Source: Branchiostoma lanceolatum
Lineage: Eukaryota; Chordata; Leptocardii; Amphioxiformes; Branchiostomatidae
Length of the DNA stretch: 64,000 nucleotides
Assembly: GCF_035083965.1 (NCBI RefSeq)
Contig: NC_089736.1
Coordinates: 7,753,501 to 7,817,500 of the forward strand
Direction of reading: 5' to 3'
Positions within the stretch are counted from its first letter, which is position 1, and the number at the start of each line of letters is the position of its first letter. Positions 13,411 through 45,003 of this stretch are shown here, one piece after another. The position numbers and the translations under genes were made by a program. The notes under the pieces are model-generated. The model did no database searches. It was not told the DNA's origin and worked only from the letters and a program-made list of their open reading frames with translations.

Positions 13411-13600
13411 GGTGCAGCAGCCTAGTGGGTAGAGTGCTCGCTTTGTATTCAAGGATCACGGGTTCGAACCCCGTCCGCGCCATACCAAAGACCTTAGACA
13501 CAATTCTCTCTCTGCGTGGTACCTAGCACTTACGTTTTTGTGAATTATTGCTGCCCCGTGTTGTAGTGCTTGTACACTGTGCGGCCCAAGGGCTTTAGAA
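13411..13600 (+). mobile_element. tRNA-derived SINE
   Basis: The head (13411-13482) resembles a tRNA: a partial A box (tagtgggtagag), a perfect B box core (GGTTCGAACCC at 13460-13470), a 7-bp acceptor stem with one mismatch and one G-T pair, and a terminal cca. The anticodon stem does not fold properly, so it is not a functional tRNA gene. Downstream, tctctctgcgtggtacctag and following sequence resemble the bodies of tRNA-derived SINEs of marine invertebrates. The 3' boundary is approximate. Confidence 0.6.
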
Positions 13601-13989
13601 AAGGAGACGGTCACAGTCCTATACACGCAAAAGTGTGGGAAGACCTTTAACTTTTCTTTTAACCAGTAGATAACTACATGTACCACAGGTGGCCAAAACT
13701 GGAGACTTTTAGTAAATCTGTACAGAGTTATGCCATTCTGATTTGATTACATGGATGACGTCCGCGCGCGCATCAATTTTCGTCTATTTCCTAAATAGAT
13801 ATACTAACATACTGTAGACCATGCAAAGCAGCTACAAAATTAGCAAATAAATGCCGTAAATTGCAAAAACATATTTCAGAAAACGGATACTAATGTCTAG
13901 AATGCCAAAATCATTTTCTGTGTGTTTTGTCATTAATTCAACCTTCCTCAACACGTAGATTTCATATTGAATTCAACTTTTTTTTTTAG

Positions 13990-14110
13990 ATTTGTTTCTT
14001 ATTTTCATTCGCACGCTCGCATCAATTTTGGGGTTTCCAAAGGATGGCATCCATATAATCAAATCAACATGGCCGTATCATAAATTCCGTGGCTTCTATA
14101 ATGGTTAGCA
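13990..14110. repeat. dispersed repeat copy, shared with 62.65 kb
   Basis: The words cgcatc, ttttggggtttcc, atcaacatggcc occur in the same order at 14016-14085 and at 62655-62715, on the same strand. This marks an interspersed element of unknown class. Confidence 0.5.
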
Positions 14111-19792: not shown

Positions 19793-22700
19793 GATTGGGC
19801 ATGAAGACTTAGATGTAACCTCCAATTATGACCATCATACATTATGACAGATATAGAGGGAATTCTGTTCTTCCAAAGGACATGTAAACATCGCTTTACT
19901 GCACATCCAGTAACTGGTGAAATATTAAATCTAGAGCTTCTGACTAGGACTGCTGCTTAAGTTAAGTATCAAAGATTATGTAATTCAGGTGCAGTAATTT
20001 TACATTGAAGTGGGACGTTTTTAATACAATGCTGCTTCAAATGACCTTCAAGTTTGAAACACAGCAGATCCAGTAACAAGATTATACGTAAGGGTTTTTA
20101 GTGATGCCCTTTGTGATTTCCTTTATTCTGTTTACTTTTACTGTAGGCGGTTTGAGATAGAGACGGTGAGCATGGTGGCATCATTTCTCCATGGCGACGA
20201 CCAGGTGGTGGGGTCGCTGACCTCGGGTGGAACAGAGAGTATCCTGATGGCTGTGAAGACGTACCGAGACAGGGCCAGGAAACTCTACCCACAGATCACC
20301 CAGCCGGAGATGGTAGATACATTTGTGTACATTATATAACAGATATGGAATCTACATATAGAATACCACATGTCGGGGGGTCTGCACAAATTGCCAATTT
20401 GTGCCAGCTATAGTGTAATTCCTAAGGCAGACTATTTAGCGACACCCCCTATTTGGACACTTTTTACTATTTTCTCAGCAAAGACTGGCTCAGAGACTGG
20501 TATGTACCGCAGACAATCTGCCTCTTAACTGGTACTTTTTTTAATGATGGTTAAGTCAAACTTTCAGCCAATCAGAGGTCTGCAGTTTGTTGTTCAGTGC
20601 ACTTTGATGGGTGTTTGATGGCCAACATATGCATGTGTATGTGAGGTGAAGTAGAAGATAAGGTTACACCAGGTAAGGCAATCTCATTGAAGTTGTCCGG
20701 AAATCTGTGTTGTTCCAGATAAGACAAGGTAATGAATATATACTACTGATAAAACCTGCTTAACGCTGATAGGGCTCGGGCAGTAGCCAAAATTGTTACT
20801 GGCAGTTACAGTGTAAGTTGTACAACCCAAAGTGAGAAGGTCTTGGTATATTTGGCCACTAATTTATCTTCTTTTGGATTTTTCCTATTAAAACTTGCCT
20901 CTTCTCTTTGGCAATGCTGCTTGTCTATTGTGGGCACAGTTGTGAGGTCCCTTGAGTAAGTTGAGTTTGGTTTGTGTCAAAATTTGAAATTTATTGTAAC
21001 ACTAAAACTTTGTTACAATGTTTCCTTTTCATTTCAGTGCAGACAGTCAGTTTCATTATAGTTTCATGTTCCTTAGAATCTTTTTAAAAAAAGAATGGAA
21101 TGAATGTCTCCTTTTGATATTGCAAAAAGCTTTACTTTCTGAATCTGAATTGGGCAGCCAGTACAACTGCCCTATGGCATAACACACCAGCTTTGCAATG
21201 GTGTGACAGCAGCTGGTGTCCTAAGTTGTCTGATACTTTTTTCCCACAGGTTGCTCCCATCACCATCCACCCTGCGTTTGAGAAGGCTGCGTCATACTTC
21301 TGCGTGAAGATGGTTCATGTTCCTGTCGGGCCAGACTTCAGGGCAGACGTCACCGCTATGGAACAGGTGCACCCAGCATTCTTAACCCTCAACATACTAA
21401 CTTCTGGCCACGCAAATGTCAGGGTTAACCTTTAGCACACTGAAGTAGCCATTTGGCACCCCATTCTGTATAGCTATTGGTTACAGAGTCAGGCAGAAGG
21501 GAGATTGTTAACTCAAATATATGGTTTTTTTTCAAATGGAAGTTCATCTATGAAGGTAATTTGAATTATGAACCTGAAAAACTAAAATGAGAATGAAATA
21601 AATCACCTTGAGTGGTTAGCGCTTTACTTCTTGTACAGAAATGCCGTATCAATTCTTTATACTAACTATATATTGTTTTGTTTCTTTTACGTATTAACCA
21701 GTAAAGCACCTCAAGGCATAACACATTCAGTTTTGCTCAGTAAGTGCTAGCTGAATAACACTGGACTGATAGTTTTGTTCTACTCAAGCAATTATGGACC
21801 TGTGCTGTTATCAACAGTAGTGGTATGCTTAATAAATGGCTGAGACCCCTAAAACAGTAACCGGGTATCCAAACCTATTTTACCTTCTGAGTCTGCCTTC
21901 AGGTGTGCGGCCTGACAAGCGTAAACCCCCTGGACAGAGCCGCGTGGAAGAGCGGTGTGACGACTAGCCTACTACTGCCCACCCCTGTGTCAGGGACCCC
22001 GGCAGCAGTATAATCAAATAATAGATACTACTACTACTACTACTACTAGTCTCTTTTGTCCTCTTCTGCAAATAGGTCTGACCTTGTTTGGTTTGAAACC
22101 GTTTCCCCTAAGTAGCTGGATATTGCAGAGAGGACAGAAGATACTTGGGAGCTATAATAGGTTTGGATACCAGGCTACTCAAACACAGGATCTCTGACTT
22201 AGCATCCTTAAGTAGTGTGCATAGCTACCATATTTATTCCTGCTGATCTTTTCTGTAGGCCATCACAGGAAACACCATCCTGCTGTGTGCCTCAGCCCCT
22301 CAGTACCCCCATGGCGTTGTGGACCCCATCTCTGACATATCAGCCATGGCACTGAGGAGGAAGCTGCCGCTACATGTGGACGCCTGCTTTGGAGGATTCA
22401 TGTTACCATGGTGAAATAATCATAAGACAGTCAAGCCACTCTTTCACATAAAATACTAGCATTGTAGGCACATTATCATCCCTTTCCTTGGTGCTGAAAG
22501 ACCGCCCCCACTCTGTTCTAAACTGTACCATCCCTTTCCTTAGTGCTGAAAGACCTTCCCCACCATGTACTATCCTGTACCAACCCTTTCCTTAGTGCTG
22601 AAGGGCCTTTCCCCACCCTGTACTATCATGTACCCTCTAATGCCATAGTGCTGAAGGACCTTCCGCACCCTGTACTATCCTGTACCATCCCTTTCCTTAG

Positions 22701-25700: not shown

Positions 25701-27020
25701 GTTAGGCAGGAGGTTAAGTTAATCTATCATTCCCTTTTAAACCTGAAATCGAGGAAGATAATGCAAAGGTGAGACAGTGGAGTCAGTACCTTGACTGTGA
25801 ACTGAACTAATTTGGAAGGACAGGAACTCCTTTCTGCAATGAATGACAAGAAATTCTGGAGAACGAACTTAACTTGCTTCACCTCGTAAGAGGAAGACCG
25901 ATAATGATGATGATAATGATGGATATGGCTTAAACAAACAGATGTCCCACTGCTGAAAACCAAGTCTTTCAGCAGGGCTCGAGAATTCTTGGGAATAGGT
26001 GCACTGGTACACCTAACCAAAAAAGTTAGGTGCACAACAAGAATTTTGGGTGCACAGCTTAAAATAAAGTAGAATGTCAGCAAACGGCACTACAAAGTTT
26101 AACCCTACTGCCTCTCTTAAGAACCTCAATCTGTTATTCTATATAGGTAACTTCAAAACTTAAAACAAGCCATTGTACAATAGTACCTTAACCCTGTAGC
26201 CTACCAAAATATCTTCGTGCACCAGTGCACCCACAGTTAAGAATTAGGTGCACAGCTCCAATTTTGGGTGCACAAAGGTGCACATGCACCTAGTATTTCA
26301 GAACAACCCTTCACATACCCTGATGACAGATACTATTTTCCAGGATGGAGGATGGAGAGAATCCAGGATCCTAACGGCCTCCACTGCTCTGTCATGCCGA
26401 GCCACACCAAGGTTCGCCAGAAGTTTGTGGAGGATCTCAGGACCGCAGCAGAGTATGTGAAGGTACGGATACATGGATACACTCAATCTGAGTATATAGG
26501 TAGTCTATAGGTTATATAGTGTGTAGAAGTTATGATGGCAACATCTACCAAAAGTGAAAGTGAAAACAAAAATGAAATTTACACGTGATTGAATCAAATG
26601 AAGTATTAACTAAATAATATGAAAACGAGACTGGTATCCACTTAAACTATTTCAATTATTTTGTAGAGATTTTGGTAGTAGCAATTGGCACAGTAAACAG
26701 AAATCTACATACATTATTTAATATACCCAGTACAGGGCTATTGCAGGTAAGGTGTAGGTAAACATCAGAAAAAACTGCACAACGCCAGTTTTACGTACCT
26801 ACAATATGCAGGTCACCAGGTCTTTTGAGCCCAGTGTATTGTTTCTGGAATACCTCACTTGCCTTCTACAAAATGCCTGTTCCTTTTACTTCAGATTCAC
26901 AAGAAAGCTTCAGAGGAAGGAGCATCTATGGCTTATGGTCTGGCTGGAAAAGTCCCAGACAAATCTCTTGTGGACGACTTCATTAAGGAGTTGTACATGG
27001 AGTTCTACACAAAGTGCTGA
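18094..27020 (+). CDS. SGPL1: sphingosine-1-phosphate lyase, twelve exons, complete
   Basis: PLP enzyme of the ER membrane that cleaves sphingosine-1-phosphate to hexadecenal and phosphoethanolamine, the exit step of sphingolipid degradation. Exons: 18094-18349, 18982-19109, 19495-19619, 20147-20312, 21250-21366, 22259-22410, 23117-23216, 23602-23716, 24263-24384, 24822-24918, 26344-26462, 26895-27020. All phases agree and give 540 aa (human 568). An N-terminal hydrophobic segment (about residues 10-50) is the lumenal/TM anchor. The group II decarboxylase-like fold follows, with [16 protein letters not shown] (cofactor phosphate binding), HVDACFGGF (Asp contacting the pyridine ring) and [10 protein letters not shown] with Schiff-base Lys342. 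The C-terminus ends [14 protein letters not shown], shorter than in vertebrates. Introns carry a GT microsatellite, a roughly 50-bp minisatellite and inverted-repeat elements. The 3'UTR probably runs to an AATAAA near 28370 and so enters the left arm of the palindrome. Confidence 0.95.
19664..19792. repeat. (GT)n microsatellite in SGPL1 intron 3
   Basis: Starts as an interrupted GT tract and ends with a purer run at 19757-19789, just after the donor of exon 3. It causes His-Thr-rich ORFs on the minus strand. Confidence 0.9.
21858..22177. mobile_element. 320-bp inverted-repeat element, TAGCCTGG family
   Basis: The terminal inverted repeats share GGTATCCAAACCTATT and its complement. The right end is CCAGGCTA and the left end is the degraded TAACCGGG. 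Flanks ctaaaacag and ctcaaacac are a plausible decayed 9-bp target duplication (7 of 9). The interior holds a short (ACT)n run (22027-22049). It lies in SGPL1 intron 5. Confidence 0.65.
22478..22900. repeat. minisatellite of roughly 50 bp units in SGPL1 intron 6
   Basis: The unit contains ccctttccttagtgctgaa, gaccttcccc and a form of tgtactatcctgtacc. About seven or eight imperfect copies are visible, interrupted at about 22725-22795 by unrelated sequence. Confidence 0.85.
23990..24100. repeat. dispersed repeat, copy 2 (see 7.1 kb)
   Basis: Shares ordered words with 7070-7205 (ttcagctgtc, ttacagaaaagg, ttggttctg, atcaaaatca), in the same orientation, within SGPL1 intron 8. Confidence 0.55.
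25970..26300. repeat. repeat with many GTGCAC motifs in SGPL1 intron 10
   Basis: The motifs ggtgcac and gtgcacc recur about ten times in both orientations (25999-26290), with taggtgcactggtacacc near the left end and ggtgcacatgcaccta near the right end. It looks like an inverted-repeat element or a decayed tandem array; class unknown. Confidence 0.5.
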
Positions 27021-27558
27021 AGACAGATTGATTCATCTCATGGTCACTGCCATACTGTAGAAATTTGTAGAACCGCAAACCTAACAAAGCGCTTAATGTT
27101 TGACACACTTTTGTTCACAATAACTCAACATTTGTGTCGAAGAACTACAGCGTCTGTTTTGAATATGATTTTCCTTCTCTCATCGCATAATGGTTCACAA
27201 ATGGAAATACAACACGAAATAAGACAAAACTACATTTTCAATTGCTATCTTGAATATCATGTGTCGAATCTATTAGCCATTATAATCAAATAATGGATAC
27301 TTCTAAAGCTGTTGTAGTTGAAACCTTCCGTTTGTCAGTTTCTAGGGGAAATGATTTCCAGCATAATTGATATTTGTGATTTTTAAGAAACCTATTATGT
27401 GTTGACCATATTGTGTAATCATCATAAGTATCTTCAGATTTGTCAAGTCCAAATTAGCTTTTAAAAGAATATCTTAAGATATTAAGTTAACTTAAGTTAA
27501 TTAACTTAGAGTTAGATTAAGATAGATTTACTAATTTGAAATGTGTATGTATTTCCAA

Positions 27559-28200
27559 ATTCAAAGTGGCAAGTGTTATTTTGACCTTATCAACAACTTG
27601 CAATGTATATGATAATTCATTTATCAACAAAGTCTATGCAGGTGAAATCTATGAGTGAACAATAGTAGAGAGTAAGGTTTTTGGAATCTTAAATTCACTG
27701 CAGAATCTGTTGTGGAATTACCTATATGAAAGTGTTTTGTTAACATTATCAGTAACTTGCCATGTAATGTCTTCCCTGGGATGTTAGGTTATTTATTTGA
27801 CAACAAAGTCTATACAGGTGAAATTTATAAGTTAACAATAGTAGAGCGCAAGTTATTTTTAATCTTAGATTCAATGCAGTTTCTGGTGTAGAAATGCCCA
27901 TTTGAAAGTGTTACATTGATATTATGGTAACTTGCCATGTGATGTCTTTCCTAGGATGTTAGATATGCGAGCAAAATCTTACAATCACTGCAGTTTTTTG
28001 TTGTGGAAATGCCCATCTGAAAGTGTTTTTAACATTATCAGTAACTTGCCATGTGATGTCTTTCCTAGGATGTAGTTGATTTATTTGTCAACAAAGTCTA
28101 TGTGAGCAAACTTTGTACATGAACAATCATAGAAAGCAATTTTTTGGGATCTTAGATTCACTTCAGTCTTCAGGTCAACAATTCTTTGATTTTGTCACAG
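27559..28200. repeat. degenerate tandem repeat, units about 115-175 bp, SGPL1 3'UTR
   Basis: Four imperfect units each contain gtgttnnnnttnacattatc, aacttgccatgt, gatgtctttcctaggatgt, caacaaagtctat and a closing cactgcag block. An inverted copy of the array is at 40480-41050 in the other palindrome arm. Confidence 0.75.
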
Positions 28201-28490
28201 TAATTAACTTCAAGATCATTCCAACATGTTATTGTGGGAAAGCTGATATGTTAGTAGTTCTATGCAGCTCTCATTGGCTATTCTATTACAGAGGAAGGAC
28301 AGGGTCGAATAAGAGTTGACTTTCTCCAGACAGTAGACCATGTAGACTAAGCTATGTGACCAAAAAATAAATATTCCAAACAATCACTATGTTTCTCATC
28401 TTCTTTCCCATGTCAAGACAGGAACTAAGTAATGATTAGCCTTAAAGGAAATGGCTAAGAGGAGGGGGATTCAATATTAGTACACATACC

Positions 28491-28515
28491 TGTGTGTGTG
28501 TGTGTGTGTGTGTGA
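28491..28515. repeat. (GT)n microsatellite
   Basis: Pure run of about 12 GT units just after the probable SGPL1 polyadenylation region; the other palindrome arm has a short CA-rich equivalent near 40165. Confidence 0.9.
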
Positions 28516-28651
28516 CATGTTTTTATATAGAATAAAATCTAAATTAGAAGTGATCATTTTACACTAACATCATAGTTCTTGAATAAATAAGGCAACGTTA
28601 ATTTCAAAAGAATTTTGCCCCAAATTCTGACCATCAAACGGCTCTCCCCAG

Positions 28652-29678
28652 CGCCCAATGTTTTATGGCACCCTCAGTGATCCACACACCTCACAATACT
28701 TCCATGTCCATGTGTGCGATACAAGCTATATGTGGATGGCGCTCAGCACCAAGGACGGGAATGTTAAATGTGAGTTACTCCAAAGCGCCGACTAACGGCT
28801 GAAAATATCATTGCAGAAAAACTGCACCGAACAGCGGCAAATATTACATAAATCGCTAGGGGGCCTCACTGACACGTGCAGATGTTACGGATAACTGACA
28901 TACCTTGACGTTATTTATACAATAAGGCACGATTGGGACAAAAGGTCAGAGGTCAATAAGCATACAAACATCCTGACCGCCTGGGTTGACGGTAAATTTC
29001 TGTTTGTTCATTTTCAAGTTCATCTCTAAAGGAGGCAGAGACTGTAGCGGGAGACCGACTCAGTGCCTAGAGGAGGCAGTACTTGTAGCAGCAAGGGAGT
29101 ACCCAAAAGCCAGGTGAGTTATGTACCTAAAGTCTTCGCGTGACGCCGTCACAGGCAGTGTAAACGTTAGGCTAGCTGTATCCGGGAGCATTGTTGTGAA
29201 AACCGGTATTGATTCTGTGCAGGCCAGCGTTGACATAACATGTTTTATGTGGCTTACTGTGAAAGACATAGGAGTAAGGGGCATGTCTGATGAGGTTTCT
29301 TGATTCATCCCCTAATGACCATATTTCATGGTTTCATAAAGATATCTAAAGAGTTGAGAGACCTTAAGAGACAAACCATGAACCAAGGCCAGTCATTCCT
29401 AGTTTCCTTCATGAATGTTTCGGCTGGTATCTCAGCGTGTTTCTTCCTTTTCGTTCCCAATATTTGTGTGTCTATAACTCGTCGTAGCGGTATTTGAATG
29501 TGACCTTTATCTTGTTCAAATGTGTGAAGTTATGACAACGACCTGCTTCCTCCCCCTCCTGTTTCTCAGCGCAGGTTGCCAAGCTTGTCTACTTGAACCC
29601 CTGATGGTCAGGGCTGACATCTTACCTCTGCTGAAGGGACTGGTGCAGAAGTTCATGATCCACGTTCAGCCTGGCTGA
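28652..29678 (+). pseudogene. 3' exons of an unrecognised gene, arm 1 copy, decayed
   Basis: Exon-like blocks at 28652-28769 (acceptor ctctccccag, donor gtgagt), about 29030-29115 and 29575-29678. The last encodes 33 residues ending LLKGLVQKFMIHVQPG before TGA and is in frame with the arm 2 copy despite a 12-bp insertion. The middle block is frameshifted by 5 bp relative to arm 2 and has TAG codons where arm 2 reads SAWYLW, so this copy looks inactive. The likely transcript end is an AATAAAG at about 31228. I do not recognise the family. The phases of the three blocks do not join cleanly, so additional exons or frame damage must be assumed. Confidence 0.4.
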
Positions 29679-29918
29679 AGGAGAGAGGCTGCCCAAACTC
29701 ACCCCATATATATATCTTTAATGATTTAATGATGGTATGTATTTCTACTAGTAGTAGATGTTTGTCTTTCATACACTTGACTACTGATTCCATCTATGTT
29801 TTGCAACTGAATGTAGATACTAGGGCAGGGGAAAGGTTGTGTTTTTATGTGGGAAACAAATCAAGAGTTTTAAGTTCAAATTTAAATTCAAAGTGCATAC
29901 GACGCTAAAAGACAACAT

Positions 29919-30010
29919 AGTGTTCTATATGTAACAATAGTCTTCTCTATGTAACAATAGTCTTCTATATGTAACAGTAGTCTTCTATATGTAACAATAG
30001 TCTTCTATAT
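29919..30010. repeat. 20-bp tandem repeat, about five copies
   Basis: The unit ttctatatgtaacaatagtc is repeated with single-base changes. The right arm keeps only about one unit at 38775-38800, so the expansion (or contraction) happened after the arms separated. Confidence 0.85.
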
Positions 30011-32115
30011 GTAGCAAAAGTATTTTCATTCAGAAACGTTTAGGAAATGAAGAAGTCATTCTCCCATTGATTTCTATTCAAAATTCACTGAATAATCTAC
30101 AAATCATACTTCCAGTTCTTGATTGCTTCTGCCAGGTAATCAAGTTAATTTCCAGCTTGGGACATCATAGTAAACATGGCAGTCAATTCAGAACCTGGTA
30201 CTGAGACTCAAAGAAAACGTTCTTTTGAGAGGCAGAAAAGCAAACATTTATGACCACTTTCAATCTCATGCCCTTTGTGATGACTATTATGTACTGTTTG
30301 CTTCTAAAAAGAATGTTTTTGCAAAACACGGTACTAGGCTCTGAACCGGCTACCCTCGTGATTGCCTGGTGGCAGGATTGAAGAGCTGGAAATATTATAG
30401 AAGGGTGTATATTTTGTACAACTGTCTTTGTTCACTTAAGAACACAACAATATATGGTGGTTGCTTGTTATCAGGAACTGATGTCCAGAAGCTTGGTGTC
30501 ATTGGTGACACAAGCACTCAGTAAATTTTGGCTTAATACAGTGTTGATTGAACAAAATGGATTTAAACTGAGGAGGTATCCATGTATGTTATCATCTTAT
30601 GTACTTCATGTTTTAGAATGGAAAGTCTCAAGTGTGATAATGTAGTTTACTTTATACTTAACATAGGGTTTGCATATGTTACCAATGGGAAATTAATTGA
30701 TTTTTCATTGATAAATCATACAGCTTTCATTAGAAGGACGACATGATTAACTTTTCTTTGTACTTTTCTTTCCCCATGTTTTCATCAAAATTGATGGACC
30801 AGAAAAGGAGTTGTGTTCATGTTACGTTACGGGTAATGTTACAAATATGTTGTTTTGTTATTTATGACTCTTGGATGCTGTCTATTTTACACAGCCTGTT
30901 TTGATATCATTCTAGCCTTATAACCTTTCACATATATATATTCATATTGATATCATTAATAGTTCTCAACAGGATTTCTTGTCTAGAATTATTGTGATGC
31001 AGCAGAAATTTAAGAGTGAACAGTATTTGAGCAGAGTAAAGAACATCTGTGTATTTGAAATTGTCCAAACACTACAGTACGTAGATAGAACTTTTTAGGT
31101 TCAAGTCATAAGACTATTCCACCATTTTATCAATGATCATTCGCTACAGCTCTCTGCAGCTGTTTTGTACTGTATTCCATGAAGGGGTGACAGGAGTTAA
31201 CTTGTGTTGTTCTATGTGTTGATCAAAATAAAGTTTTGGACCAATAAGCATGTGTTTGTCTTCATTTCAACCCAACCAAGTAGAACATTCAAGCAGATAT
31301 GTTTTAAGTTTAAGGAAAGGGGAATACTTTCAAGAAAGCAAGATTTAACTTGGAATATAGAGGGGGTATAATTTCATGGCTGAACATCACACAAGCCATT
31401 AGTTCATCTTGAAAATGTCTGAGATGCACCTGAAAATAGGTAAACAGAGAATGAAACTATCTGAATTGGAGTTACAAGCGTTATATGGTAATGATGTTAC
31501 CTTTTTTCAGGGATAATTGACTTTGTAGAAAAGACATGTTTTGACAAAAAAGCTCCCTATTTAACAACTTGTAAAGGACGTTCTGGAAATAGTTGCATCA
31601 AAATTAGCAAATACAGGAGTGAAACGGTTAATTGCTGGTAGATTCGTGATATTTAGATAGTAGGGATGAGCCTCAATGTCAAGAACAAGAGCAAGAAAGA
31701 ACAGGAGTGAAACCCCCATAAGAGCCCATCTCGTTTCCCAAGTCGCGAAATGGCCAAATCTGGGAATGGGCAACGTTTCGTTAGCGAGATACGGGCCTTT
31801 TCGGAACGGGGGCTCCAAAATGGGGGTGTGATAGGGGATGAATTTCCGCTTTCTCAATTTCAGAAAAAGCACACTTATGACATTCTTGGGCTTCCTCATT
31901 GTCACAGTGTACTCCTTACGATCTCCATTCTATTCCTACTCAATGCCTTTGACTAAAATTGATTCATTCTTGAGTTATACGTCAAAAAGTGAACTGAACG
32001 CTTGCAGCTCGTGGTCAGAGCGTTGCAAAAAGTGGAATTTTAGGTCGATTTTCATTACCATATGAATCGAAACCAAGCAGATGGTGGGAGGAAAATCGTA
32101 ACGCTTATACATGTC

Positions 32116-32228
32116 TAGCCTGGAATCCCGACCTATTTATAGCTGCCGGGTCTCTTCTCTCCCTCCGCAAAATTTGCGGAGGGAGAGAAGAGACCCGGCA
32201 GCTATAAATAGGTCGGGATTCCAGGCTA
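32116..32228. mobile_element. perfect 113-bp hairpin element with 9-bp target duplication
   Basis: 56-bp arms are perfectly complementary around a single central base (32172). Termini are TAGCCTGG and CCAGGCTA. Identical 9-bp flanks atacatgtc lie at 32107-32115 and 32229-32237. The corresponding site in the other palindrome arm (about 35865-35875) is empty with one copy of the target word. This is a recent insertion of a palindromic MITE of the TAGCCTGG family. Confidence 0.9.
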
Positions 32229-33967
32229 ATACATGTCCAAATCTATGACCATGTTTATATTCATTTAGATACGGCTGCAAGATATGTACATGTAGTTGTT
32301 TTGCCGGGAATCGCATTTTATATGTTATATGTTGTACGTCATTATGTACTTATGCGATAAAAGTAGTTTATCACGGTAGTTTAGAGACTTTTGTTGCAGG
32401 AATACTGATGTTGCACTGAATTTTCATAAATAATGCGCCATATCAGACCACAAACAAAATTACACTGTCACAGAAATAAGACAGAGCTACTCGAAACCTG
32501 AGGTGGGACAATTCCTAGGTACGTTGTGCCATGTGGCGACAGTCTAGTGTGTCTGGAGTACTGTAATCCAGACAAGATAGCTACTGTTGTCCTTTGCATC
32601 GACGATCGCTAGCAGCACTAGTACCACAAGAGCGAAAAAATGATATCGTTTTATTATCATCACACACAAATATCACAAAACGTTCTTTTCTTGTTTATCT
32701 TTCATAACATTTTTCTTTAATTAAGGAAACCACCAATCTTAAAGCATAGCCATCTCATAATGGGCTGGTACACTTTGTAGCTGAAATTCTGAAAGAACAA
32801 CATACCCTAACGTTATCACGACTTACGACCGAAATAGCTTTCTATCCTTAAGCTCTGTGACTCTGAAACTTTTGTTTGTGGTCTGATATGGTGCCTTGTT
32901 TATGAAACATAAGTGCAACATCAGTATTCCAGCAACAAAAGTCACTGAATTTCACCAATAAACTATCTTTATGTTATCGGTATATCATGACGTACAATAT
33001 TCCACATGTAAAATGCATTTTCCCGATAAAGCAACTTCATGCCTTAGCTACCAGCATATCACATGAATAAATTATCATAATAACCACAATAGTATTCACC
33101 GTTGCCAACCATTTCACAGCATTTTGAAAAGAAATTGGTTCTATTGATTAATAAACAGACATGAACACCGTTGCATTTATTCAACGTCTTCTTGTTTCAT
33201 AGATTACGATTGAACTTGAATGTGGTAGCCTTTTAGAAAGTGACCATTTACAGGAAATGCACACTTTACTACTTCTACTGGTAAAATACAAAGAAAACAT
33301 GTAATTCATGACCTTATGTCCCATTGTATTTTTGCGAAATGTCTTAAACATCACATTACTTTGTTTTGCGTGCTCGTAGTTTCAAGTTCAAGGTCAAATA
33401 AGCCTCAAAACGTCAAACCCCTTTGCGAGTCTTTAGCGATTTCCCCATTCCCGAAAAGACCGAAATTTGGCAATTTGACGGTCTCCTTTATCACTTTTCG
33501 TGATACGGTCGGGAGCGGTACTGCAGATTAGGCTATGATAGGGTATGTGATCCCCACTTGGAATATGTGAAAATGAAGAAGACGTTAGGCTCAAGGCCAG
33601 TGGAAACTTTCCTAAATGGTTCCAGACATCTTTGCATACATCTAGAATGACGAGTTGACATGAAAAGGATCGATTTGTAGGCGCCGCGCGAGGAGCCCAT
33701 GAAACACCGTGTCCGCCGTCGAAGCGCCACCTACATCTATGTTTTCATCATATCTTGCGGGTAATTAGTAGGTTAAGGATATATATGCACATCATCCGTT
33801 TTCCCTTAATCACTTTTGCGTTTCACCCAACTGCTCATCTGCTTATATGGCGTAGGGGACTGTCAGAGAGGCCCGGCTGTCACTCAGAAAACATGACGAT
33901 CCTTCACCTCCAACATCTGCTTTGAGACCTCAGGCGAAATCTCCAAGCAGATGTAAGGATGATGTGT

Positions 33968-34062
33968 AAAAGATGGTCCTTGTCAAATCATTTTGTAATC
34001 TGGTATCTTGGTGTCACAGTTGAAGCGTAACTGTCACCTGTTCCTAAGTATCATTACAAGTC
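33968..34062. other. hinge (spacer) of the palindrome
   Basis: About 95 bp that do not pair with each other, between arm ends carrying ctccaagcagatgtaagga and its complement tccttacatctgcttggag. Each arm end itself has a small inverted pair (catctgctt...aagcagatg), so the centre is a hairpin within the larger hairpin. Confidence 0.8.
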
Positions 34063-37000
34063 CTTACATCTGCTTGGAGATTTCGCCTAAGGTCTCAAAG
34101 CAGATGTTACGGTGGAAGATCGTCATGTTTTCTGAGTGACAGCCGGGCCTCTCTGACAGCCCCGTACCCCAAATCGCAGGTGAGAAGTTGGTTGAAACGC
34201 AAAAATTACTAAGGGAAAACGGATGATGTGCACATATATCCTTAAACTACTAATTACGTACAAGATATGATGAAAACTAAGATGTAGGGGGCGCTTCGAC
34301 CGGCGGACACGGTGTTACATGGGCTCCTCGCGCGGCACCTACAAATCGATCCTTTTCATGTCAACTCGTCATTCTAGATGTATGTAAAGATGTCTGGAAC
34401 CATTTAGGAAAGCTTTCACTGGCCTTGAGCCTAACGTCTTCTTCATTTTCACATGTTACAAGTGGGGATCACATACCCTATCATAGCCTAATCTGCAGTA
34501 CCGCTCCCGACCGTATCACGAAAAGTGATAAAGGAGACCGTCAAATTGCCAAATTTCGGTCTTTTCGGGAATGGGGAAATCGCGAAAGACTCGCAAAGGG
34601 GTTTGTCGTTTTGAGGCTTATTTGACCTTGAACTTGAAGCTGCGAGCACGCAAAACAAAGTAATTTGATATTTCAGACATTTGGCCAAAATACAATGGAC
34701 ATTAGGTCATAAATTACATGCTTCCTTTGTATTTTACCAGTAGAAAAAGTAAAGTGTGCATTTCCTGTAAATGGTCGCTTTCTGAAAGGCTACCACATTC
34801 AAGTTCAATCGTAATCTATGAAACAAGAAGACGTTGACCAAATGCTGCGGTGTTCATGTCTGTTTATTAATCGATAGATCCAATATATCCTTTCAAAATG
34901 ACGTAAGGTGTTTTGGTTACATAACACCGCTGCAACGGTGAATGCTATGGTGGTTATTATGATAATCTATTCATATGATATGCTGGTAGCTAAGACATGC
35001 ATCGCTTTATCGGGAAAATGCATTTTACATGTGAAATGTTGTACCTCATGATATACCGATAACATAGATACAGTTTGTTGGTGTAATTCAATGACTTTTG
35101 TTATACTGGAATACTGATGTTGCGCTGGTGTTTCATAAACAAGGCACCATATCAGACCACAAACAAAACTTTCAGAGCCATAGATCTTAAGGATAGAAAG
35201 CTAATCCGGTCGTCAGGCGTGATCACTCTTGCGTATGTTGTTCTTTCAGAATTTCAGCTGCAAAGTGTAGTCTACAAAGCCTAGTGCAAGATGGCTATGG
35301 TGGTTTCTTTGATTTAGGAAACACGTTGTCTTTAAACTAACGTCCCTATGACGGGAGGTATATGAAAGATCAACAGGAAAGGAACGTTTTGTGACATCTC
35401 TTTATGATGATAGTAAAACTATAAAGTTTTATATACATGTAGTTATGTTTTTATTCTTCGCACTTATGGAACTAGTGATCTTCCTTAAAGGTGCTACCGA
35501 TCTTCGAGAGAAAGAACAGCAGTGAGCGTCTTGTCTGGATTACAGTACTCCAGACACACTATACTGTCAACACTTGGAAGCTGTACCTAGAAATTGTCAT
35601 ACCTCAGGCCTCGAGTAGCTCTGTATTAGTTCTGTGACTCTGAACGTTTTGTTCGTGGTCTGATATGGCGCATTGTTTATGAAACATCGGTGCAACATAA
35701 GTATTCCAGCAACAAAAGTCACTGAACTACCGTGATAAACTATTTCTATCGCATAAGTACATAATGAAGTCAACATATAACATATAAAATGCAATTCCTG
35801 GCAAAACAACTACATATCTTCGCTAGCAGCCATATTCAAATGGTTATATGGTCATAGATTTGGACATGTTTTAATGTTACGATTTCCCTCATACCATCTG
35901 CTTGGTTTTGATTCATATGGTAATGAAAATACACCTAAAATTTCACTTTTTGCAACTCTCTGACCACGAGCTGCAAACGTTCAGTTCAATTTTTGACGTA
36001 TAACTCAAGAATGAAGCAACTTTAATCAAAGACATTCAGCAGGAATAGAATGGAGATCATAAGGAGTACACTGTGACAATAAGGAAGCCGAAGAATGTCA
36101 TAAGTGTGCTTTTTCTGAAATTGAGAAAGCGGAAATTCATCCCCTATCACACCCCCGTTTTAGAGCCCCCGTTCCGAAAAGGCCCGTATCTCGCTAACGA
36201 AGCATCGCCCATTCCCAGATTTGGCCATTTCGCGACTTGGGAAACGAGATGGGCTCTTATGGGGGTTTCACTCCAGTTCTTTCTTGCCCTTGTTCTTGAC
36301 ATTGAGGCTCATTCCGACTATCTAGATATCATGAACCTATAAGGAATGAACCGTATGACCCCTGCATGTGCTCATTTTGACAGAAAAATGTCCTGAACGT
36401 CCTGTACAAATTGTTAAATAGGGAGCTTTTTTGTCAAAACGTCTGACATTTCTGTTTCTACAAATTCCTGAAAAAATGTAAAATCATAACTATATAACAT
36501 TATATTGGAAGTTAAAATTTATTTTATAACTTCTGCTTTCTTGAAAGCATTGCCCTTTCCTTATAGTCAAGACATATCTGCCCATTCTACGTTGGCTTTC
36601 AAAAAAGACAAACACATACACATTGGTCCAAAACTTTATTTTCTCATTGATCAGCACAAAGAAAACAAGATACATTAACTCATATGTAATCGTGTCACCC
36701 CTTCATAGATATAGAATACTGTACAAAACAGCTGAAGGGAACTGTAGCAAATTGTACTATTATCATTTTTAAAATGGTAGAACAGTCTTATGACTTGAAC
36801 CTAAAAAGTTCTACCTGAGTATTGGACAATTTCAAATACACAGATGTTTTCTACTCTGCTCAAATACCGTTCATTCTTAAATGTCTGCTACATCACAATA
36901 ATCATACACATGAAATCCTGTTGAGAACCATGAATAATATCAGTATGAATGGTTAGTGATATAATAATCTTTTAAAGGTTAAGGCTAGAACAATATCACA

Positions 37001-37395
37001 AAAGGTTGAACTCATCACCTATCAAACAGGCTGTAGAATAGTGAGCATCCAAGAGTCACAAACATGAAAACAACACATTTGTAACATTACTTGTATGTAG
37101 CAACATAAATACAACAGCTTTTCTGGGCCATCAATTCTGATGAAAACAGTGGAGAGAAAAGTACAAAGAAAAGTTAATCAGGTTGTCCTTCTCATGAAAG
37201 CTGTGTGATTTATCAATGAAAAAAATTAATTACTTTTCCATTGGTTACATGCCAATACTATATAAAGTATTGATTATTACATGCTGGTACATTAACTACA
37301 TTATCATACTTGAGACTTTCCATTCTAAAACATGAAGTACATGTACATATCTTGACATGTCCCTCACAATATGTTATCATTTGGACAAATCCTGG

Positions 37396-37917
37396 CTCAT
37401 TAATTCAGCTTTTTTCACGGTCATATTTTAGCGCCCTCTGTCTCTCAGTCCGCCAACTGCAGCATTGCGAACCGCCATTAACCGCACCGTTGCCAGGATA
37501 GGATACACCAAGGACAAAGCAGGTCGTGTACAGCCTCCTTGCGTAAAACCAAATCAAAATGGCATCAGAAAGGAGACACACCAGGACTCGGAGCACTTTT
37601 GAAAACCGATGGTTGGTAAAGAATTTCCCAAAGCAAAGGAGCAATATCTGTAACAGTCATGGTCAACACACCGTTTGCAGGCATCATCGGTTTTCAGTCT
37701 ATATAACCTCCTTGGTTTTCAAAAGTATTTCGAGCCCTGGTGTGTCTCCTTTCAAATATCATTTTGATTTGGTTTACCCAAGGAGGCTCTACAATACCTG
37801 CTTGGTGCATCCTATCCTTGCAATGGTGCGGTTGATTACGGTTCACAATGCTGCAGTTGACAGGCTGAGAGTTAGAGGGCGCTAAAACATGACCATGAAA
37901 TAAGCTGAATTAATGAG
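37396..37917. mobile_element. 522-bp foldback element, right arm only
   Basis: Begins ctcattaattcagctt and ends with its exact complement. The inverted arms continue inward about 200 bp (for example gcgccctctgtctctcag against ctgagagttagagggcgc) to a loop near 37620-37700. No counterpart is present at the homologous site of the left arm (about 30590). It is probably a non-autonomous foldback DNA element. Confidence 0.8.
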
Positions 37918-39024
37918 GCACACGGACGCGTGTAGTGGTGCTTTACATCAACATGCATGTAAAGCTGGAGAGTTGCCAGCACAGTTTGGCAATTCCAAAA
38001 GATATGGACGCAACAGCACCACACATATGCCAAGTTATAACACTATATAAGTTAATTATTATAAGACTCCCTGTTTGTAAATGACAGTGTCCATCATGTC
38101 ATTTATCTAAATGCTCTTCTCGAAGATTCTCGAACTTGCCGCGCGCGGTACAATGATGCTACACAAGATGATAACATACATGGATATCTCTTCAGCTTAA
38201 ATCCATTTTGTTCAATCAACACTGTATTTAGCCAACAATTTAAGTGCTTGTGTCACCAATGACACTAAACTCCTGAAGAACAGTTCCTGATTACAAGCAA
38301 CCACTATAAGTGTTATGTAATGAACAAAGACCTTTGCACAAAATATGCACCCTTCTATAATACATCCACAGTTCCAGTTCTTAAAACCTGCCACCAGGCA
38401 ATCATGAGGGAAGCCGGTTCAGAGCCTGGTACCGCGACTCGATTTTTAGAAGCAAACATTGCATAATCATCGCAAAGGGCATGAGATTGCAACTTGTCTC
38501 AATGTTTGCTCCTGCTTCTCAAAAGAACGTTTCCTTTGAGTCGCAGTACCAGGTTCCAAACCGACTGCCATGTTTACTATGACGTCACAAGCTGGAAATG
38601 AACTTGACTAGCTGGCGGTATACTTCAAATTCAACTTCAACTTCAACTACCCCCAGATAACCCCGCTTGGTAGGAATCAAGAACTGGAAGTATGATCTGT
38701 AGATTTTTCAGTGAACTTTGAATAGAAATCAATGGGACAACCAATTTCCTAAACATGTCGAGTTTCTGGATAATAATACTATTGTTACATACTATTGTGT
38801 CTTCAAGTGTCGTATGCACTTTAGATTTTAAACTTAAAACTCTTGCTTTGTTTCCCATACAAAAACACAACCTTTCCCCTTCCTATCTACATTCAGTTGC
38901 AAAACATAGATGGAATCAGTAGTCAAGTGTATGAAAGACAAACATCTACCACCAGTAGAAATACATACAATCATTAAATCATTAAAGATATATATATGGG
39001 GTGAGGTTGGGCAGCCTCTCTCCT

Positions 39025-40018
39025 TCAGCCAGGCTGAACGTGGATCATGAACTTCTGCACCAGTCCCTTCAGCAGAGGCAAGATGTCAGCCCTGTCAAGT
39101 AGACAAGCTCGGCAACCTGCACTGAGAAACAGGAGGGGAAGGAAGCAGGTTGGTTTATAACTTCACATTTCAACAAGATAAAAACGCACTTAGACACAGC
39201 CATGCATGATTCAAATATTGACACACAAATGTTAAACAGGGAACAAAAAGGAAGAAACACACTGAGCTACCAGTCGAAACATTCGTGGTATTAAGATTAA
39301 ATTATTGGCCTTGGTTATGTCTTGACTCTTCAACGTTAGGTCTCTCAACTCAAGTTCAGCTTCTTTATCAAACCGTGAAATGTGGTCATGTGGGGATAAA
39401 CCAACAAACACGATCGGACACGCTCCCTTTCTCCTCTGTCTTCCACAGTAAAGGCACATAAAATTGCACAGAATCAATACGGGATTTCATAACAATGTTC
39501 CCGAATACAGCTAACGTAACACTGCCGGCGCCTGTGACGTGAATATTCTAGATTCAGCACTCACCTGGCTTTGAGGTACTGGTTCCCTGCTGCCCACAAG
39601 TACCAGGCACTGAGCCGGTCTCCCGCTACAGTCTCTGCCTCCTTCAGACTAAAGAAAAACATGAAAATGAACAAACAAAAATTCACCGTCAACGCAGGAC
39701 GTCAAGGTTATTGACCTCTGACCCTTTTGTCCCAATCGTGCCTTATTACATAAATAACGTCAAGGTATGTCAGTTATCCATAATATCTGCACCTGTCAGT
39801 GAGGCCCCCTAGCGATTAATTCAATAATTGTCGCTGTTCGGTGCAGGTGATTCCTGCAATGATATTTTCAGCCGTTAGTCGGCGCTTTGGATGTACTTAC
39901 ATATAGCATTCCTGTCCTTGGTGCTGAACGCCATCCATACATAGCTTATATCGCACACATGGACATGGAAGTATTGTGAGGTGTGTGGATAACTGATGGT
40001 GCAATATAACATTGGGTG
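39025..40018 (-). pseudogene. 3' exons of the same unrecognised gene, arm 2 copy
   Basis: Inverted counterpart of the arm 1 blocks. The middle exon 39565-39648 is open (acceptor tttctttag, donor gtgagt) and encodes LKEAETVAGDRLSAWYLWAA and about eight more residues. The last exon 39025-39116 encodes 29 residues ending LLKGLVQKFMIHVQPG. The first block (39901-40018, donor gtaagt) has lost the cccag acceptor present in arm 1. Each arm is thus damaged in a different place. It may be a pseudogene, or a live gene with another first exon; no upstream exons were found up to the LRR gene. Confidence 0.4.
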
Positions 40019-40224
40019 TCATGGAGAGTCGTCTAATGGACAGAACTTGGGGCAAAATCCTTTTGTTATTAACGTTAACTGATTTATTCGGGGACTGTAA
40101 TGTTAGTGTAAAATGGTCACTTCTTATTCAGATTTTATTCTATACAAAAACTTGACGTGGCACACATACACACACGCACACGCAAACACACACAGAGAGA
40201 AATGTGTACTAATATTGAACCAAC

Positions 40225-40241
40225 ACCCCCCCCCCCCCCCT
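40225..40241. repeat. poly(C) run
   Basis: Uninterrupted run of C after caacacc, next to the CA-rich remnant of the microsatellite in the right arm. Confidence 0.9.
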
Positions 40242-41070
40242 CCCCTTGGCCTTTCCCTTTAAGGTAGATTGTTGCTCAGATCCTGTCCTGATATGGGAAA
40301 GAAGAAGAGAGAAACGGTGCTTGGTTGCAATCTTTATATTTTGTCACATAGCTTAGTCTACATGGTGCACTGTCTGGAGAAAGTCAACTCTTATTCAACC
40401 CTGTCCTTCCTCTGTCACAGAATAGCCAAAGAGAACTGCACAGAATTACTAATATGTCAGCTTTACCTCAATAACATGCAGGAATGATCTTAAAGTTAAT
40501 AACTTTGCCAAAATCAAAGAACTGTTGATCATTTCCACCAAAAAGACTGCAGTGAATTTAAGATTTAAAAAAAACTTGCTTTCTACGATTGTTCACCTAC
40601 ACATTTTTCCTGCATAGATTGTGTTGACCTATGAATCATCTAACATCTGAGGAAAGACATCACATGGCAAGTTACTGATAGTGTTAACAAAACACTTTCA
40701 GGTGGGCATTTCCACAACAGAAACTGCAATAAATTTAAGATTTGAAAACCTTACATTCTACGATTGTTCACCTACAAATTTTGCTCGCATATCTAACATC
40801 CTAGAAAATACATCACATGGCAAGCTACCATACTATCAATGTAACACTTTCAAATGGGCATTTCTACACCAGAAACTGGATTGAAGTTAAGACTAAAAAC
40901 AACTTGCTCTCTACTATTGTTAACTTATAAATTTCACCTGTATAGACTTCGTTGACAAATAAATGGTACGGCATCACATTGCAAGTTATTGATAATGTCA
41001 ACATAACTCTTGCCACTTTGAATTTGGAAATACATGCACACTTCAAAAGAGTAGATCTAATATACTGCTT

Positions 41071-42384
41071 GAAAAAAAGATGGATACAATCATGTGGAAC
41101 ATGCTACATGAGTAACGTTAACATATTTGCCAGTACAGGGCAATACTGAATATTCTCTGCGCAGTTATTGGGCCAGCAGAACTGTCTTGAATCCCAGGAA
41201 AACTTTTCATCCAGTTAAAGCTTTACTTCAAAATATACTTTTAGAACTTCACGGGGGAACGTAAACCAAAACCGTGATCCGTACGGAGCATTCAAATGAT
41301 AATCTGCTCTGCTAAAGCTTCTTGGTCAATCTCAGGATTTCTTGGGGCTAGAGACTTACTTTGATCCTGCTGCTTTTAAGAGTTTCCAATCATCTGCTAA
41401 ACCAGGTAGAAGGAAATAACTTTTCCGCGGCCACAAACAGAGCTTCCGTCATGATTAACTTTCTTCTTTGCCATATGTGACACGTTTTGTTATTGGTTGT
41501 TTTTCAGGCACGTTTGAGCTGATAGGTCAATCCGGGATTTATTATAATTGTCCCCGACCCTGGCGCGAAGTCCCTTCCGCTACCGGCTTTCTTTGTACGT
41601 TAGCGGAGAGATGCCAGACAATTGACCGATCACGTAGGCATAGCCCCGAACACCTCCGTCAAAACGTAGACATGCAAAATAAAACATTTTAAAAATGCAG
41701 CCATTCTCTCATTGGTCTAACTGTAAAGTTTCGTGCTATCATTGGTTGAACTGCTAATTGTGATGGACAGTCAGGATCGTTCTATATCTGACGAGCAGCC
41801 AGTATAACCAACCAGTCTTGTGTATGCGATGAGAGTGCCCCGCATCGCTGATTTTCAGTCCAGTTTTCTATAGTACGTATAGCTAAGTAAGACCAGATTG
41901 ATAAGTTTGATCCACTCACATCGGCATGGGCTCCTACTGCTACTCCTGTGGATAAGTGTGGTGGGTTCTTTAACGCGCTCCAGGTGTGGCTTTCCTCAAA
42001 CCCGCGACCTCCCGACATCCGACTGTCGGGCTTGAGCCTCGGTGCGCTGCGTCACTACTACCTAGACGACAGGGCCGATATCTTCAAACTTTACGATAAA
42101 CAGGTATCAAGCATGTACTGTTTCAAACTGCAGTAGTTCAGAATGAACGCTCAGAAGAACTGTTAGCATTTAGGACTGTTCGCGGTCGTCCTTGTAGGGC
42201 TGCAATATCCATCAGTAACACTGCGCCAAAACAAAAAGACTCGCATTGTCGTAACGTCTTAATGTACAGTCCTCTATTTACTGGTGGTGCACAAGTTGTA
42301 TCGACTTTACTTTCCAGTGAATCGGCTTCTTAAAGCTACATTTGGTGAGATTGTAAAAGTTGTGTTTCGCCACGCTTGTAAAGG
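41071..42384. other. intergenic DNA and presumed 5' region of the LRR gene
   Basis: No coding exon recognised. The sequence just before 42385 shows no clear acceptor, so the LRR gene may have an unspliced 5'UTR here. Confidence 0.4.
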
Positions 42385-45003
42385 ATGGGGTATGCGATGA
42401 TGACTGTTTTTGCTTTAGCGGTGGCTTCTACAATATTTGTCCAATCCTGCTTCCCGGGTTGCAAGGTGACAGACATAAAGCTCTGTATTCCCAATAAGGA
42501 GCCCTGGCTTCCCGGTTACTTAAAGGATAGGGCGCCATACAATAAGAATCCTATGACAGAGGGGTCTTGTATTTTATGCGGAGAAAATGCAAAGCGTTCG
42601 TTACAGGAAAGCACCGTTTTGTACCCATTAACGAGCCCCTTGTTAGCTGTGAGAGGTCATCCCTTTGGCGTGCTATCAGCACAGTCATTTCAATCGTGTA
42701 ACAACTCGGGAGTTAACTACCTTCGTCTCGTAGAGGGAGGCATAACGGACATAGAATCCAGCAGTTTCGGCGTGTTTCTGAACTTACAGCTTTTGTATCT
42801 GGATTACAACAGCTTGACTCACGCCAAGAAAGATTGGTTCACCGAGTTGGGTTCTCCCGATAAGCTGTTAGTTCTGGCTTTGTCGCACAACAAGATCGTA
42901 GACATTGAATCGGGAAGCTTTGCACGACTCCGTATGCTGAAAGACCTGTCTCTCAAACATAACCTTCTCCGACATGTTCGTTCTGACTGGTTTTACGGCT
43001 TGACACACTTATCGGGACTGAACTTATTCTCAAACCGGCTCGAAACCTTACCAAAGGATGCGTTTGTGTTTCTGACCGAATTGAAGCGACTGGACATGAG
43101 AAACAACGATTTGATGAGCCTCCCCAAGGAATTTCGTTGGCCACACAAAAATACAATATTCATGGACATTGCCGGAAATGGATTGCGCGGTGTGTATGAT
43201 CGTACAGTTGGATGGACAGCCACGCTGTTGTCTGATTTGTCTTTCGTACAATTGAGAGTCACCCGTCTGAACATCCGCCCCAGTTTGGGTTCATACTTCA
43301 AACAGGATCACAAGAGGCTGATCTATGTTACACATACAGAAGACGCTACTCGAACGACATCTTATGACTACGGATACAAAAAGGCCCGGCATATCAGAGG
43401 CCGCATAATGAAAAGCCAGAACTATCCCCGTCCTTTCTTGATCATAGCTGTCATGGAGGGCGAAGACACCAAACCCGAAGACACATTAAACCAATGGTGT
43501 AAACGGTTTTGGTCAGGGGAAGATACAGCTAGTACAAACTTAGGAGCGAGCGAAGGAACAACCCTACAGCTGGCTGCCATTGTGACGAAGAAGAACAACA
43601 GAACAGTTAGTCTGTTTTCCGTTTTATTCGACCCCACCTCGTCAGCTGAAGAAAAAAGCCCGTACAACAGCAACCGGACACAGGTCGACAGTACGCCGGC
43701 GGAGGAAGGCACGGGGGCCGTGAAGTGCGTCCTAGTTAGCGGGGAGAAAACATTCGAGTTCTCCTTCCTTGCGAAGAAACGTGAACAGTCAGACACCACC
43801 ACTGTGCGCAACAATACCACGTCCACGGTGCGCTACAATACCACCACAGTACGCTACAATACCACGTCCACTGTGTGCTACAATACCACCACAGTACGCT
43901 ACAATACCAGCGAGCAAGGTCGCGACAACACGACATATGTTGTATTTGGGGAGAGCAAATCAACAGAGAACAGCACGGCTTCCCTCCCTTCAGCCGATGT
44001 GCACGGGGAACTGACGCCTACCCTGATGGACATAACTATAACGATGCGACCAGACCAAAATCAAGACCAACCGACGATCTCTGCAGGTAAGATGTTCATG
44101 TTCTCAGCGGCAACATTTTTAGGCCTGGTGGTTGTCATCTACCTAGTCAGTATGCTGGGAAAGACACCGTGCCCCTCCCGTCGCCATGGCGACCAGGACG
44201 CCAGTGATGATCCGAATACCTACTGTGAGATAACTGACGTTACGCCAATAGCCTCCACACAGGTGTTCAACACACAGGTTGGTCAGGCCCCCACGGCGGT
44301 AACAGCCGAGGATGACATGCCAACCTATAGTGAAATCCCCACCGAGTACTTCAGCTTCAATAACCCTGGGTATCGGCGTGCTTCGCTTCCAACAGACGAC
44401 CACATCTATTGTCAGATACCGGACAAGTACTACCGCTATCAGAACACCCGGCCATCCTCACTGCCTCTGACCTTTGATATGACGTATGAAAACGTCCAAT
44501 ACGAGAACGTTGGGCGCTGCCAGCGACAACCTTCTGACAATAATGTACAAGACGCGGAGGTGTCCCCTCCTTCTGTGTCAAGGTTGGGCACCATGCATCC
44601 ACAATACGTGAATCACGCTGATATGTCCAAATCTCCGGACTACACAACGATGACTGGGGAGATAGAGAAGGAGGCAGACGTCATTGCCCACGGAAAACCC
44701 AAAGCAAAGAATCTAAAGTCTCGTGACATGATTCGAAGAGGGGCATATGGTACAACGCGGCGGTCTGCAGGTGTAGCCTGGAGAGCCAGGCCTCAGGATG
44801 AAGACAACACATCGTACCGGCCCGCAGACCAAGTTGTGGCTAGGGACCGGCGGACGGACGTCAATCAACCGCCGAGGAGTATTCCCGTCCCGAGGCCTAC
44901 CAGTGTCCCAATTCACAAGTCTTGGAGCCAAGAGATACCGTTGTCAGAACTAAGAACAACAGGTTCTGGAAAAATGACACTTAGGTCCCGTCATAGTCTG
45001 TAA
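42385..45003 (+). CDS. single-exon leucine-rich-repeat transmembrane receptor with tyrosine-motif tail
   Basis: 872-aa type I membrane protein encoded without introns. Residues 1-20 are a signal peptide; a Cys-rich cap follows (C22, C26, C34, C62, C65, C105). Five to six leucine-rich repeats lie at about 110-270 (LLVLALSHNKI, LSGLNLFSNRL, LKRLDMRNNDL). A long Thr/Ser-rich stalk has an array of TTTVRYNTT-type sequons (about 470-511). A single TM segment lies at about 570-592 (FLGLVVVIYLVSML), then a tail of 280 residues. The tail has tyrosines in SH2-type contexts: Y613 (YCEI), Y648 (YSEI), Y675 (YCQI), Y701 (YENV), Y706 (VQYENV, an ITIM match), Y741 (YVNH, Grb2-type YxN) and Y753 (YTTM, YxxM). 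A signalling role in recognition or adhesion is inferred; no ortholog is recognised. The ATG is preceded by aaagg; the lack of introns may reflect retroposition or the compact LRR receptors common in lancelets. Confidence 0.88.
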   Translation: MGYAMMTVFALAVASTIFVQSCFPGCKVTDIKLCIPNKEPWLPGYLKDRAPYNKNPMTEGSCILCGENAKRSLQESTVLYPLTSPLLAVRGHPFGVLSAQSFQSCNNSGVNYLRLVEGGITDIESSSFGVFLNLQLLYLDYNSLTHAKKDWFTELGSPDKLLVLALSHNKIVDIESGSFARLRMLKDLSLKHNLLRHVRSDWFYGLTHLSGLNLFSNRLETLPKDAFVFLTELKRLDMRNNDLMSLPKEFRWPHKNTIFMDIAGNGLRGVYDRTVGWTATLLSDLSFVQLRVTRLNIRPSLGSYFKQDHKRLIYVTHTEDATRTTSYDYGYKKARHIRGRIMKSQNYPRPFLIIAVMEGEDTKPEDTLNQWCKRFWSGEDTASTNLGASEGTTLQLAAIVTKKNNRTVSLFSVLFDPTSSAEEKSPYNSNRTQVDSTPAEEGTGAVKCVLVSGEKTFEFSFLAKKREQSDTTTVRNNTTSTVRYNTTTVRYNTTSTVCYNTTTVRYNTSEQGRDNTTYVVFGESKSTENSTASLPSADVHGELTPTLMDITITMRPDQNQDQPTISAGKMFMFSAATFLGLVVVIYLVSMLGKTPCPSRRHGDQDASDDPNTYCEITDVTPIASTQVFNTQVGQAPTAVTAEDDMPTYSEIPTEYFSFNNPGYRRASLPTDDHIYCQIPDKYYRYQNTRPSSLPLTFDMTYENVQYENVGRCQRQPSDNNVQDAEVSPPSVSRLGTMHPQYVNHADMSKSPDYTTMTGEIEKEADVIAHGKPKAKNLKSRDMIRRGAYGTTRRSAGVAWRARPQDEDNTSYRPADQVVARDRRTDVNQPPRSIPVPRPTSVPIHKSWSQEIPLSELRTTGSGKMTLRSRHSL

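Follow-up and report, generated by a model that had tools for sequence, protein, structure and literature searches.

The stretch of Branchiostoma lanceolatum DNA analysed here (the window, 64,000 nucleotides) contains at 27520-41060 two arms pairing in reverse complement over their full length, with a spacer of 99 bp between them. We consider it probable that an inverted segmental duplication, a single and ancient one that may have arisen through template switching, gave rise to them and is now decaying. The palindrome, having two long collinear reverse-complement arms and a short spacer, qualifies as a large imperfect palindrome or inverted segmental duplication; it is a further case of an already known type and otherwise an ordinary genomic duplication. 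In a literature search no title on this palindrome was found among the matches listed.

Structure of the palindrome

The window was compared with itself by blastn. Inverted (minus-strand) matches were obtained between 27523-27964 and 41059-40638 (75.8%), between 27730-30609 and 41011-38153 (77.7%, E 0.0) and between 30599-32115 and 37342-35863 (75.6%), and the segment 32227-35873 matches itself across the hinge (83.1%); all these percentages include gap columns. Aligning one half to the other with MAFFT, tips and part of the flank included, gave an identity of 84.5% over 6091 aligned sites. As a control, 20 block-shuffles of the right arm were searched at E 1e-3 with default scoring and gave no matches, while the real arms scored in the same way matched 8 times on the minus strand and once on the plus strand, the latter match falling at the probably older palindrome nested in each arm. 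A giant imperfect palindrome of 13.5 kb, as proposed in the first-pass annotation, is thus borne out by a collinear inverted match in both programs and by 0 of 20 shuffles, and the coordinates given there were correct to about 10 bp. The hinge had been put at 33968-34062 with a size of about 95 bp; its place was about right, but the size is revised here to 99 bp, because the innermost pairing stops at about 33962/34062. No further copy of an arm was found within the 64-kb window, which holds only short matches, the best two (E 3e-6) being to the 113-bp hairpin element of the left arm. The parts of the palindrome are collected in Table 1.

Table 1. Coordinates of the palindrome and of the features inside it, numbered from the first letter of the window.
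Feature	Position	Strand	Description	Counterpart or method
Left arm	27520-33962	+	6443 bp	blastn, MAFFT
Hinge spacer	33963-34061		99 bp	Shuffle and DNA-fold tests
Right arm	34062-41060	-	6999 bp, reverse complement of left arm	blastn, MAFFT
Tandem repeats, outer tip of left arm	27609-28167		114-176 bp spacing	40530-40989
Last-exon-like frame, left arm	29568-29678	+	Acceptor AG, in-frame stop
High-identity tract	29577-29860		9 mismatches in 268 sites
AATAAA downstream of gene tail	31227-31232	+		36635-36640, right arm, minus strand
High-identity tract	31655-31960		17 mismatches in 306 sites, gap-free
Hairpin element, left arm only	32116-32228		113 bp, 99% self-complementary
Nested palindrome, left arm	32258-33069		63.8%	34958-35856, right arm, 64.3%
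High-identity tract	33340-33740		17 mismatches in 401 sites; arms identical over 125 bp, 33436-33560
Quasi-palindrome adjoining spacer	33913-33954		42 bp, identical 10 bp inverted at each end	34066-34107, right arm
Insertion, right arm only	37343-38152		810 bp (blastn) or 822 gap columns (MAFFT); contains an inverted repeat
Last-exon-like frame, right arm	39025-39123	-	32 residues, acceptor, stop
Upstream exon-like frame, right arm	39567-39650	-	Open, 28 residues, acceptor and donor

Outer edges and flanking genes

Arm homology begins 500 bp beyond the stop codon of SGPL1 (27018-27020), possibly within the 3'UTR, where the first-pass annotation puts it, and a perfect 16-bp AT-rich palindrome at 27493-27508 lies directly outside this left edge. 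Between 27440-27560 and 41030-41150 there is no direct repeat of at least 7 bp, and therefore no visible target duplication; the longest direct word common to both outer-end regions measures 6 bp and lies away from the edges. Tandem units occupy only the outermost 0.6 kb or so of either arm. Between the first two blastn matches the outer register moves by about 159 bp, near the period of the tip repeats.

The name SGPL1 rests on a peptide joined from two exon pieces, which matched sphingosine-1-phosphate lyases in PDB; a PDB search with another joined peptide, a C-terminal one, gave 0 matches, and Pfam, run on all three plus-strand frames of the region, gave 0 families. The two exon pieces, from 20058-21435 and at 93 residues too short a query for a firm conclusion, matched structures of putative bacterial sphingosine-1-phosphate lyases, of the Symbiobacterium type or other (E 4.5e-22), better than human SGPL1 (E 2.5e-16). 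On the other side of the palindrome, one open frame of 873 residues at 42382-45003 resembles, by reading of the sequence, a leucine-rich-repeat (LRR) membrane protein.

Divergence between the arms

Divergence was measured on a core made up of the alignment columns of left-arm positions 27730-33962 only, leaving out the tandem tips. The core contains 770 mismatches in 5765 sites (13.4%; identity 86.6%), namely 407 transitions and 363 transversions, giving a K2P distance of 0.148. The left arm has 38 gap events, totalling 1187 bp with a largest gap of 822, and the right arm has 37, totalling 464 bp. The many substitutions, indels and arm-specific insertions described in the first-pass annotation are therefore real, and with 13.4% substitutions and insertions peculiar to each arm its conclusion of an old inverted duplication, as opposed to a sequencing fold-back, holds.

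The same annotation had asked for identity to be followed along the arms, taking uniform divergence as support for one event and patches of near-identity as support for ongoing conversion. The profile is patchy, which fits ongoing conversion but fits local constraint equally well. Window variance of divergence exceeds that of all 1000 permutations (variance-to-mean ratio 3.7 versus at most 1.35), and the longest identical run between the arms is 125 bp versus at most 98 bp in the permutations. Three high-identity tracts, chosen after the profile had been seen, stand at 94-97% identity, and outside them 727 of 4790 sites mismatch (15.2%). One tract spans the last exon of the gene tail described below and sequence 3' of its stop; in the other two, mismatches fall on the three codon positions as 7/5/5 and 11/4/4, which shows no clear codon pattern. 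These figures suggest conversion or constraint in the three tracts. With regard to GC-biased conversion, identity correlated with GC content at a Spearman coefficient of 0.25 (p 0.06, n=57 blocks).

It is conceivable, yet on balance doubtful, that this is a very old palindrome still exchanging sequence, in which arm-to-arm gene conversion would hold the three tracts of 270-400 bp at 94-97% while the rest has diverged by about 15%. Arms maintained by conversion would be more than 99% identical throughout, whereas here 13.4% of core sites mismatch and only the three tracts rise to 94-97%. Mammalian X-chromosome palindromes with arm-to-arm conversion likewise have large inverted arms carrying gene sequence, but the arm identity given for them in the relevant part of PMC8981503 exceeds 99%. 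If such exchange were real, an invertebrate chordate would have in this hairpin a locus that is still active and homogenised in patches.

Layers within the arms

The arms probably contain elements of different relative age. On either side of the 113-bp hairpin of the left arm stands one copy of a target duplication of 9 bp (32107-32115 and 32229-32237), and the right arm has the unoccupied site, a single copy of the 9-bp word with 8 of 9 letters identical. The insertion of the right arm contains its own inverted repeat of 528 bp (37393-37920, 75.6%). Since the hairpin with its target duplication is found on the left only, facing an empty site, and the 0.8-kb insertion on the right only, both arrived after the duplication. 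A stretch in the SGPL1 region, 22120-22198, resembles the hairpin (73-80% over 59-77 bp, E 3e-6), so the hairpin is likely a dispersed mobile element. The nested 0.8-kb palindrome lies at the corresponding place in both arms and is more diverged, and for this reason probably predates the duplication.

To judge from their reading frames and splice sites, the arms appear to carry a spliced gene tail, with the frame intact on the right and disrupted on the left. The left-arm upstream exon (29023 onward) is interrupted by stops, and the left last exon differs from the right one by 12 bp in frame. The tail peptides and four conserved reading frames gave nothing convincing against Pfam and PDB (best PDB E 1.4). 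When the tail peptide was searched against the window, the matches outside the arms were weak (best E 0.15), and upstream exons were therefore not recognised; different upstream exons are beyond the reach of a query made from the tail. Pfam was also run on 26501-34002 in its three plus frames and on 34001-42502 in its three minus frames, with stops written as X, and no convincing domain was found. One match to SEO_N (E 0.0049, 16.5 bits versus a cut-off of 27) was below threshold and judged to be chance. Rfam and ARAGORN gave no RNA family within the palindrome.

The spacer and its borders

The inverted self-similarity of the spacer is not beyond chance, as 225 of 300 shuffled versions reach its score, and the idea that pairing carries on into the spacer was rejected on this count. 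Folded as DNA, the spacer has a z of -1.39, and 18 of 200 shuffles fold equally well. The 42-bp quasi-palindrome bordering it could be the site of a switch, or, being present in both arms, it may be plain duplicated sequence.

Origin of the palindrome

A single inverted duplication is the simplest account because of the collinearity of the arms, their equal extent and the small spacer. The starting point would have been a segment of 6.4-7 kb between SGPL1 and the LRR gene, already holding a small foldback element and the gene tail. This segment would have been copied once, in reverse, beside the original, leaving the 99-bp spacer. For the copying itself we infer a template switch at a replication fork or a fold-back of a DNA end, at the short inverted repeats adjoining the spacer. 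Separate insertions and substitutions would later have accumulated in each arm, and in one of the arms the gene tail would have broken. We counted in favour of a single duplication that outer target duplication is absent and that the scanned frames hold no convincing domain. Against it we counted that divergence is uneven along the arms, that the spacer of 99 bp lies beyond the preferred 40-80 bp and that its inverted similarity is not above chance.

The preferred range comes from yeast, where template-switch (ODIRA) junctions favour inverted repeats 40-80 bp apart, according to the account of these junctions in PMC10766183. Those amplicons are similar to the present structure in that inverted copies meet over a short spacer, and the short inverted repeats at their junctions may have a parallel here; as far as that account goes, they differ in being mostly inverted triplications under selection, where we have a simple duplication. 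Human fold-back inverted duplications also surround an unduplicated spacer, but the spacers tabulated in PMC3907307 measure 766-70,466 bp (median 3,428), and the arms described there are Mb-sized and accompanied by terminal deletions, unlike the interstitial arms of 6.5-7 kb found here. The spacer lies closer to the yeast fork-switch than to the human fold-back range. Its small size, together with the 42-bp quasi-palindrome at either border, would fit a fork template switch better than the kb-sized loops of the human fold-backs.

Within the genus, extended inverted repeats (palindromes) are reported from the VCBP2/5 locus of Branchiostoma floridae (PMC2632668). Some of these are oppositely oriented gene fragments with a short spacer, for instance a ribonucleotide reductase fragment, and resemble the present case in this. 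By the description of that locus in PMC2632668 they are haplotype-specific and situated within a cluster of immune genes, and the two members of the gene-fragment pair have hardly diverged, in contrast to the 13% measured here.

Two other origins involve mobile or dispersed sequence. Inverted ends containing tandem subrepeats are a hallmark of foldback transposons, and a giant element of this type, with inverted ends of 6.5 kb and a captured gene fragment, would explain the tandem repeats at the tips of both arms, a gene tail lacking its upstream exons and the further foldback sequences nearby. We regard it as unlikely, given that no word longer than 6 bp is common to the outer ends, that the arms have no second copy in the window and that no transposase domain was seen in the plus frames of the left half or the minus frames of the right half. 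Instead, one long repeat or segmental duplication may have inserted here twice, in separate events that left its copies tail to tail. The 13.4% divergence is compatible with two members of a dispersed family, and the rest of the gene tail is not evident in either flank, the peptide search of the window having returned weak matches only; copies of the same length ending 99 bp apart nevertheless make this distinctly unlikely, as two insertions are more often unequal in extent, and here too another copy in the window is lacking.

That two alleles were joined head to head in assembly seems very improbable to us. An inverted allele would place SGPL1 on the right, yet the blastn self-comparison of the window gave no inverted SGPL1 match on that flank, homology ending at 27520/41060, and the window contains no N run. 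Divergence alone does not settle the matter, since amphioxus haplotypes can differ strongly, at 7.6% of aligned bases in the VCBP locus, and misassemblies are mentioned for the first amphioxus assembly (both from the VCBP locus report, PMC2632668, as far as it bears on this point); the 15.2% found outside the three tracts is twice that haplotype figure. Least credible of all is that the locus is maintained as a hairpin, its read-through RNA forming long dsRNA for small-RNA regulation. The core offers 55 perfect pairing runs of at least 21 bp, covering 1852 of 5765 sites with the longest at 125 bp, but the 13% divergence, the insertions and the broken exon resemble drift, and the tracts with the highest conservation lack a clear codon pattern. 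Of these origins, the single inverted duplication remains the one we prefer.

Other features of the window

A Ser/Thr-rich frame of 1330 residues at 48274-52266 is mucin-like in appearance and includes a 72-bp tandem repeat (49154-50272, 15.5 copies, 93% matches). Related sequences of 150 bp at 13917-14074 and 55118-55270 form an inverted pair with 78% identity. Rfam matched a tRNA at 13411-13482 with 35.1 bits, above the gathering score; it is absent from the ARAGORN output.

Implications

Instability is expected of long palindromes, together with loss or central breakage. Judged from its sequence, instability is possible for the present one, and so is the formation of dsRNA; the gene conversion, double-strand breaks, copy-number change and dsRNA from transcripts across the hinge that the first-pass annotation put forward would be examples. 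As an old palindrome with datable layers, the nested foldback probably being earlier and the arm-specific insertions later than the duplication, it provides a modest test case for the lifespan of such structures and for whether or not conversion persists at 13-15% divergence.
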